From NCBI GenBank assembly GCA_020847695.1, contig JADLBP010000187.1, forward strand, positions 1 to 64,000: a stretch of DNA of 64,000 nt, written 5' to 3'. Source of the DNA: Planctomycetota bacterium. Its GTDB lineage: Bacteria; Planctomycetota; UBA1135; GCA-002686595. The notes below the pieces were generated by a model. That model worked only from the letters and a program-made list of their open reading frames with translations. It made no database searches and was not told where the DNA came from. This document shows positions 24,715 to 28,254 of this stretch, in pieces. Numbering within the stretch: position 1 is the first letter of the stretch; each line of letters opens with the position of its first letter. Made by a program: the position numbers and the translations under genes.

Positions 24715-26772
<2,058 letters not shown>

Positions 26773-26811: not shown

Positions 26812-27270
26812 TCACGCGCGCGGCAAGAGCTCCGCGTTGCGCGCCAAGAACTCCGGCGCCCAGCGATAGTGCGTAAGCAGCTCGGGCCTTGGACGGTCGA
26901 GCAGCGCGACCGCGGCGTAGAGCGCCTCAATCGACGCGAGCCCGTTGCTCGGATCGGCGAAGACCTTGCTCTTGCGCGGATACGCGGTCACCAACGGCGG
27001 CAAGCGACGCGGCCGCAAGTCGCCGCGGACGACGCGGCGCAGTTCGGCGAGGTGCTTCCACGAGCTGTCGAGCACCAAGAGCCCGAGTCCGCGATCCGCG
27101 GGTCCGATCTCCTCACCCTCCGGGTCGAGCAGGATGCGCGTACCGACGTCGAGTTCGAGCCCGCGCCGGTAGTTGACGAAGCGCACGCCGGGGAAGTCCC
27201 GCAGAGGCACGAGCGAGCACTTGTGCGGCGACTCGCGCGGGTCGCGGACGATCAGCACGTCGAGGTCCAT
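26812..27270 (-). CDS. Tsr3/DUF367-like putative rRNA aminocarboxypropyltransferase
   Basis: 152 aa; KCSLVPLRDF..., ILLDPEGEEIGPADR, GLLVLDSSWK, RRLPPLVTAYP...GLASIEALYAAVALL...LLTHYRWAPEFLARNAELL resembles Tsr3 architecture. Confidence 0.6.
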   Translation of the reverse strand: MDLDVLIVRDPRESPHKCSLVPLRDFPGVRFVNYRRGLELDVGTRILLDPEGEEIGPADRGLGLLVLDSSWKHLAELRRVVRGDLRPRRLPPLVTAYPRKSKVFADPSNGLASIEALYAAVALLDRPRPELLTHYRWAPEFLARNAELLPRA

Positions 27271-27367
27271 CGCGGCTCTTCGGGCGAACGACGAGCGCCG
27301 AGCACGGCGGTGAAATGCGCGGGGCCGCGCGAAGCGGCCCCGGTTTCGTCCAGCGTGCTCGTGCGGC

Positions 27368-27844
27368 TCAGCGCGCGTAGTGCGCGTAGGCCTTGTTGGC
27401 CTCCGCCATCTTGTGGACCTGTTCCTTCCACTGGACCGAAGCGCCGGTCCCGTTGAAGGCGTCGACGAACTCCTCGGAGAGGCGGATCGCCATCGGCTTG
27501 CCTTTTTTCTTGCGGGCGTTGTCGACCAGCCAGCGGATCGCGAGCGACTGCTGACGGTTGCGACGCACTTCGCGCGGCACTTGGTAGTTCGCACCGCCGA
27601 CTCGCTTCGAGCGCACTTCGACGGACGGACGGATGTTGTCGATCGCGCGGTTGAAGATCTCCTGCGGATCTTGGACGTCCGGGAGCTTCTTGTGGGCGCG
27701 GTCGAGCGCTTCGTAGAAGATCGCTTGGGCGGTCGACTTCTTGCCGCTCCACATCAGCTTGTTGATGATCTTCGAAGCCAGGAGCGAAGCGAACTTCGGA
27801 TCCGGCTTGATCAGCGGAGCGGTCGACTTGTAGTTACGCGGCAT
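27368..27844 (-). CDS. rpsG: 30S ribosomal protein S7
   Basis: MPRNYKSTAPLIKPDPKFASLLASKIINKLMWSGKKSTAQ. Confidence 0.98.
   Translation of the reverse strand: MPRNYKSTAPLIKPDPKFASLLASKIINKLMWSGKKSTAQAIFYEALDRAHKKLPDVQDPQEIFNRAIDNIRPSVEVRSKRVGGANYQVPREVRRNRQQSLAIRWLVDNARKKKGKPMAIRLSEEFVDAFNGTGASVQWKEQVHKMAEANKAYAHYAR

Positions 27845-27879: not shown

Positions 27880-28254
<375 letters not shown>

Follow-up and report, generated by a model that had tools for sequence, protein, structure and literature searches.

A Tsr3-like gene in a planctomycete str operon: a predicted SAM-dependent acp-transferase in bacteria that lack the usual Tsr3 target base

Introduction

Which RNA is modified by a Tsr3-like protein that occurs in every sampled genome of a bacterial order, has a constant place in the str operon in some families of that order and coexists with 16S rRNA lacking the usual target base? 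Tsr3 is usually seen as a ribosome-assembly enzyme of archaea and eukaryotes, where its substrate, a uridine or m1-pseudouridine, forms the tip of helix 31 (PMC11698992, PMC6895100). The question is raised by a gene within a 64,000-nucleotide stretch of planctomycete DNA, referred to here as the window. A preliminary description of this DNA had likened the encoded protein to Tsr3, had suggested a small-subunit or decoding role from its location and had regarded a bacterial enzyme of this type at this place as unusual.

The gene and its operon

The window is part of a 5.6 Mb assembly in 390 contigs, and among named relatives Planctomycetota MAGs come closest (95% and 85% protein identity). The gene order on the minus strand is rpoC-rpsL-rpsG-Tsr3-like gene-fusA-rpsJ-rplC-rplD-rplB (Table 1). 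The open reading frame lies exactly where it had been placed before, between rpsG and the EF-G gene; its strand had not been given, and all of the motifs quoted earlier are found in the protein. It is located 97 nt past rpsG and 39 nt ahead of fusA and is presumably co-transcribed with its operon neighbors. The gap toward rpsG contains a hairpin that is retained in the close relatives L031 and L032, with an altered loop in the latter. This hairpin is a possible terminator, attenuator or mRNA element.

Table 1. Features of the str operon surrounding the Tsr3-like gene (positions within the window).
Feature	Position	Strand	Remarks
fusA, elongation factor G	24715..26772	(-)	downstream of Tsr3-like gene; TIGR00484 above cut-off
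Tsr3-like gene (PF04034, TDD superfamily)	26812..27270	(-)	152 aa; predicted SAM-dependent acp-transferase
GC-rich hairpin GGGGCCGC-TTCGC-GCGGCCCC	27321..27341	(-)	gap between rpsG and Tsr3-like gene; sequence inspection
rpsG, 30S ribosomal protein S7	27368..27844	(-)	upstream of Tsr3-like gene; TIGR01029 above cut-off
rpsL, 30S ribosomal protein S12	27880..28254	(-)	TIGR00981 above cut-off

Relationship to Tsr3 and other superfamily members

PF04034 was the single Pfam family matched by the protein (E=1.1e-10; 41.8 bits versus a gathering cut-off of 29.9), and the same profile was matched by all 40 aligned family members. The DTW profile PF03942 was matched by seven of these 40 (E<=0.01) and gave no match for the window's protein in the Pfam profile search. 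The NCBIfam models for archaeal DUF367/TSR3 returned significant E-values, with scores that stayed far below the equivalog cut-offs, i.e. 52.2 bits for PRK02287 (cut-off 152 bits) and 41.2 bits for TSR3Vulc0418 (cut-off 300 bits). A phmmer search of the PDB matched only the Tsr3 proteins of V. distributa (8e-10) and S. solfataricus, and use of the family profile raised the V. distributa match to 3e-13. An AlphaFold model built from the 40-row alignment (pLDDT 92.4, pTM 0.87) was compared with the PDB by Foldseek, and archaeal Tsr3 accounted for all matches at E<=0.001. The best of these was 5apg_A (E 7.5e-10, TM 0.74 of the query, probability 1.00), followed in the list by TapT with a probability of 0.66. 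The predicted structure is that of a SPOUT-type Tsr3 fold. Since PF04034 scores above its cut-off, archaeal Tsr3 is the best match in the PDB and the fold matches as well, the 152-aa protein is clearly Tsr3-like. Both the profile search and the fold comparison that had been proposed for this protein thus bear out its Tsr3/DUF367 homology.

Like the window's protein, archaeal Tsr3 (V. distributa 5apg and S. solfataricus 5ap8; PF04034/DUF367) has a compact single-domain SPOUT-type fold, and the two share the D-x-S-W, RxLP and EA-helix motifs as well as a C-terminal YxWxxxFLxxN region. They differ in the archaeal ANP stretch, in place of which the bacterial family characteristically has TAYPR (or TSYPR). 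Maximum-likelihood analysis joined the bacterial sequences in a single clade (100/99 support), separate from the two archaeal sequences, which sit on long branches. Because only these two archaeal rows were included, root and depth of the tree are unsure, and with the same proviso the tree does not suggest a recent transfer from archaea. TapT/YfiP (DTW domain, PF03942), the tRNA acp3U47 transferase of E. coli, belongs to the same superfamily and shares the predicted chemistry. Yet TapT has an N-terminal Cys4 zinc region, whereas the window's protein starts directly at the core, and the two match only weakly in fold. With neither a PF03942 match nor the Cys4 region, the protein does not qualify as TapT/DTWD2.

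The occurrence of such proteins in bacteria is not new, because a family of bacterial TSR3 relatives, pc1599, was described in 2014 by Burroughs and Aravind (PMC4275035). According to the passages of that paper on this family, it was found by iterative search from archaeal TSR3, is mainly distributed among planctomycetes, verrucomicrobia and chlamydiae, and already included a cited Planctomyces sequence; these passages do not mention placement in the str operon. A later survey stated that TSR3 orthologues belong predominantly to eukaryotes and archaea rather than to bacteria (PMC6895100). The window's protein most likely belongs to the pc1599 family, an assignment made from shared TDD hallmarks and from a taxonomic range that fits as far as the sampled Planctomycetota and Verrucomicrobiota go.

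Conserved residues

The TDD hallmarks, as given in the parts of PMC4275035 that define them, are an acidic residue after strand 1, a DsoW motif and a Glu in the penultimate helix. In both Tsr3 and TapT, the D/E-x-S/T-W motif includes a Trp that binds SAM and a residue that probably acts as the catalytic base (PMC7026641). All of these hallmarks are present as E13, D68-x-x-W71 and E115, which are invariant in 40 sequences, together with C18, D59, L64, R88, T95, Y97, P98, R99, P107, G110, L111, A112, A116, L132 and Y135. The equivalent of V. distributa T19 is Ser19, a position with nearly invariant Ser/Thr across the family, and the SAM-binding W73 of V. distributa corresponds to Trp71, with Trp kept in the family. 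A76, another SAM contact in V. distributa, is replaced by Leu74, and some relatives have other residues in the center of the DxSW motif (DCAW, DSNW). The basic residues involved in RNA binding are reportedly R60, K65 and R131 of the yeast protein, as described in the Tsr3 paper of Meyer et al. from 2016. Presumably only R60 is kept here, in form of K17, and we take the K65 position to be P22, which is nearly invariant in the family.

Distribution, selection and gene neighborhood

Of the 296 sampled Planctomycetota, 63 gave strong matches to the family profile, as did 11 of 196 Verrucomicrobiota. The strongly matching planctomycetes include members of family f29 whose near-complete genomes consist of a single contig. 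If any match is counted, the planctomycete number rises to 71 genomes, eight of which have weak matches only, probably to DTW proteins. The gene is present in all 21 sampled genomes of the window's order, as detected with the family profile, since PF04034 is too insensitive for some members of the order. This, together with the 2014 report, does not support the idea that a protein of this type is unusual in bacteria. Outside this order, the distribution in Planctomycetota is patchy, and a search of viral contigs returned no relative. Comparison of the gene with its nearest relative L031 gave dN 0.021 and dS 0.337 (dN/dS about 0.06), and that of L031 with L032 gave dN 0.126 and dS 0.556 (dN/dS about 0.23). 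Purifying selection on the gene is clear.

The arrangement rpsG-[Tsr3-like gene]-fusA was found in 31 loci from three families of the order (f1, f3 and f4), a count drawn from two genome collections in which some loci may represent the same species. One further locus (G094) has fusA adjoining and an unresolved upstream side, and in families f2 and f5 the sampled copies are located elsewhere. A neighborhood survey across the rest of the phylum revealed no recurrent translation neighbor. The only recurrent neighbor outside the str operon is ispG (gcpE), which directly precedes the Tsr3-like gene in three other planctomycetes (L012, L145 and L155). As judged by eye, one RsmG-like neighbor also occurs outside the str operon. 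Hence, conservation concerns the gene rather than its position, and only some families of one order have it fixed in the str operon. As no translation neighbor recurs outside this lineage, the str location may be incidental. In the open-access literature, no report of this placement was found. The open reading frame is a real gene, as follows from the PF04034 match, the matching of every aligned family member, the low dN/dS and the retention of the rpsG-fusA slot in 31 loci.

Helix 31 and position 966

In E. coli, the helix-31 loop contains m2G966 and m5C967 (PMC7056703). The corresponding 16S loop could be read in 23 genomes from Planctomycetota and Verrucomicrobiota that carry the gene, and the equivalent of position 966 is G in all of them; a uridine at this site was consequently rejected. 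In the window's taxonomic family, the loop reads A-G-C-A-A and thus has no uridine. No 16S gene of the window genome itself turned up in its assembly, and the readings at 966 come from gene-bearing relatives. Several complete-looking f29 genomes (G024, G050, G182 and others) likewise gave no 16S match, perhaps due to masked stretches in the collection; in L067, a run of N lies inside the 16S gene. The same G966 was found in four genomes without a family match (G002, G003, G010 and G012), so the loop base does not track the gene. Moreover, all 21 sampled genomes of the window's order have RsmD-type genes (PF03602), and none of them has Nep1. With G at 966, an RsmD-type enzyme present and Nep1 absent, the protein cannot modify this base as Tsr3 does by the known N3-uridine chemistry. 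The shared decoding-site target implied by the preliminary description thus finds no support. Other parts of that interpretation are supported, namely the Tsr3/DUF367 homology, the catalytic motif and a ribosomal context that is conserved in the 31 loci.

Proposed function

The protein belongs to the TDD/SPOUT superfamily and, most likely, to its bacterial pc1599 family, which is kin to archaeal and eukaryotic Tsr3. Trp71 and Ser19 would hold SAM in the Tsr3 mode with the 3-amino-3-carboxypropyl (acp) group facing the substrate. Asp68 could then deprotonate N3 of a uridine, and transfer of the acp group to this nitrogen would afford acp3U. The likely substrate is an rRNA uridine other than that at position 966, and its modification may take place while the subunit is being assembled or on the ribosome itself. 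We infer SAM use, acp chemistry, uridine specificity and an rRNA substrate on two grounds. Transfer of acp from SAM to uridine is the best guess because the two characterized branches of the superfamily, Tsr3 and TapT, are both acp-transferases (PMC7026641), and rRNA is the likely substrate because the gene sits with those for S12, S7 and EF-G in the window's order. The protein is thus probably a bacterial SAM-dependent acp-transferase for a uridine other than 966, which would itself probably be ribosomal. The replacement of A76 by Leu74, the variable middle of the DxSW motif and the scores below the equivalog cut-offs count against this assignment. More tentatively, a Tsr3-type enzyme produced together with S12, S7 and EF-G might install acp on an rRNA uridine at a site new to any domain, in connection with translocation or assembly.

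A tRNA substrate is a serious rival, if on present evidence an unlikely one. The enzyme would then be a tRNA acp3U transferase standing in for TapT/DTWD2, and its str location would result from a chance rearrangement. This would agree with the known bacterial acp3U enzyme acting on tRNA (PMC7026641), with the scarcity of TapT-type DTW proteins in the window's order (4 of 21 genomes) and with neighbors that are unrelated to ribosomes outside this order. However, sequence and fold are much closer to Tsr3 than to TapT, and the basic N-terminal Cys4 extension of TapT is missing. DTW proteins are also encoded by 16 of the 63 genomes that have the family versus 47 of the 233 that lack it, which is not a complementary distribution, and replacement of TapT was rejected for this reason.

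A non-acp activity appears improbable, be it that of an RNase or of a catalytically weak rRNA-binding assembly factor. An RNase role was proposed for the entire superfamily from genomic context in 2014, in the pertinent passages of Burroughs and Aravind (PMC4275035), and the DCAW or DSNW variants of some relatives would be compatible with weakened catalysis. Later work has shown acp transfer for two branches of the superfamily (PMC7026641, PMC6895100), though, and all 40 aligned sequences keep the D and W of the motif. A true Tsr3 function, that is, helix-31 hypermodification at the equivalent of yeast U1191 (E. coli 966), is scarcely credible: homology and fold match to archaeal Tsr3 and the conserved site beside S12, S7 and EF-G speak for it, but it is already disfavored by the invariant G966, the uridine-free loop, the RsmD-type genes in the absence of Nep1 and an acp transfer that is known in this superfamily on N3 of uridine or m1-pseudouridine.

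Membership in the superfamily was already on record. New with respect to the open-access literature are the linkage to the str operon, the conservation throughout the sampled order and the lack of the target base. An acp-transferase for a uridine other than 966 predicts an undetected modified nucleoside in bacteria that carry the gene. If true, an acp modification of rRNA at a new site would be, within the same literature, the first in bacteria. The presence of the family in bacteria that lack the usual target base also raises the question of whether the role of Tsr3 at position 966 is ancestral or secondary.

The fusA gene of the operon is one among several EF-G-type paralogues in the genome, others being located on contigs C125 (45% identity) and C83 (29% identity). 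Between relatives, the str-operon EF-G evolves at a much higher rate than rpsL and rpsG, and the role of main translocase may fall to another paralogue.
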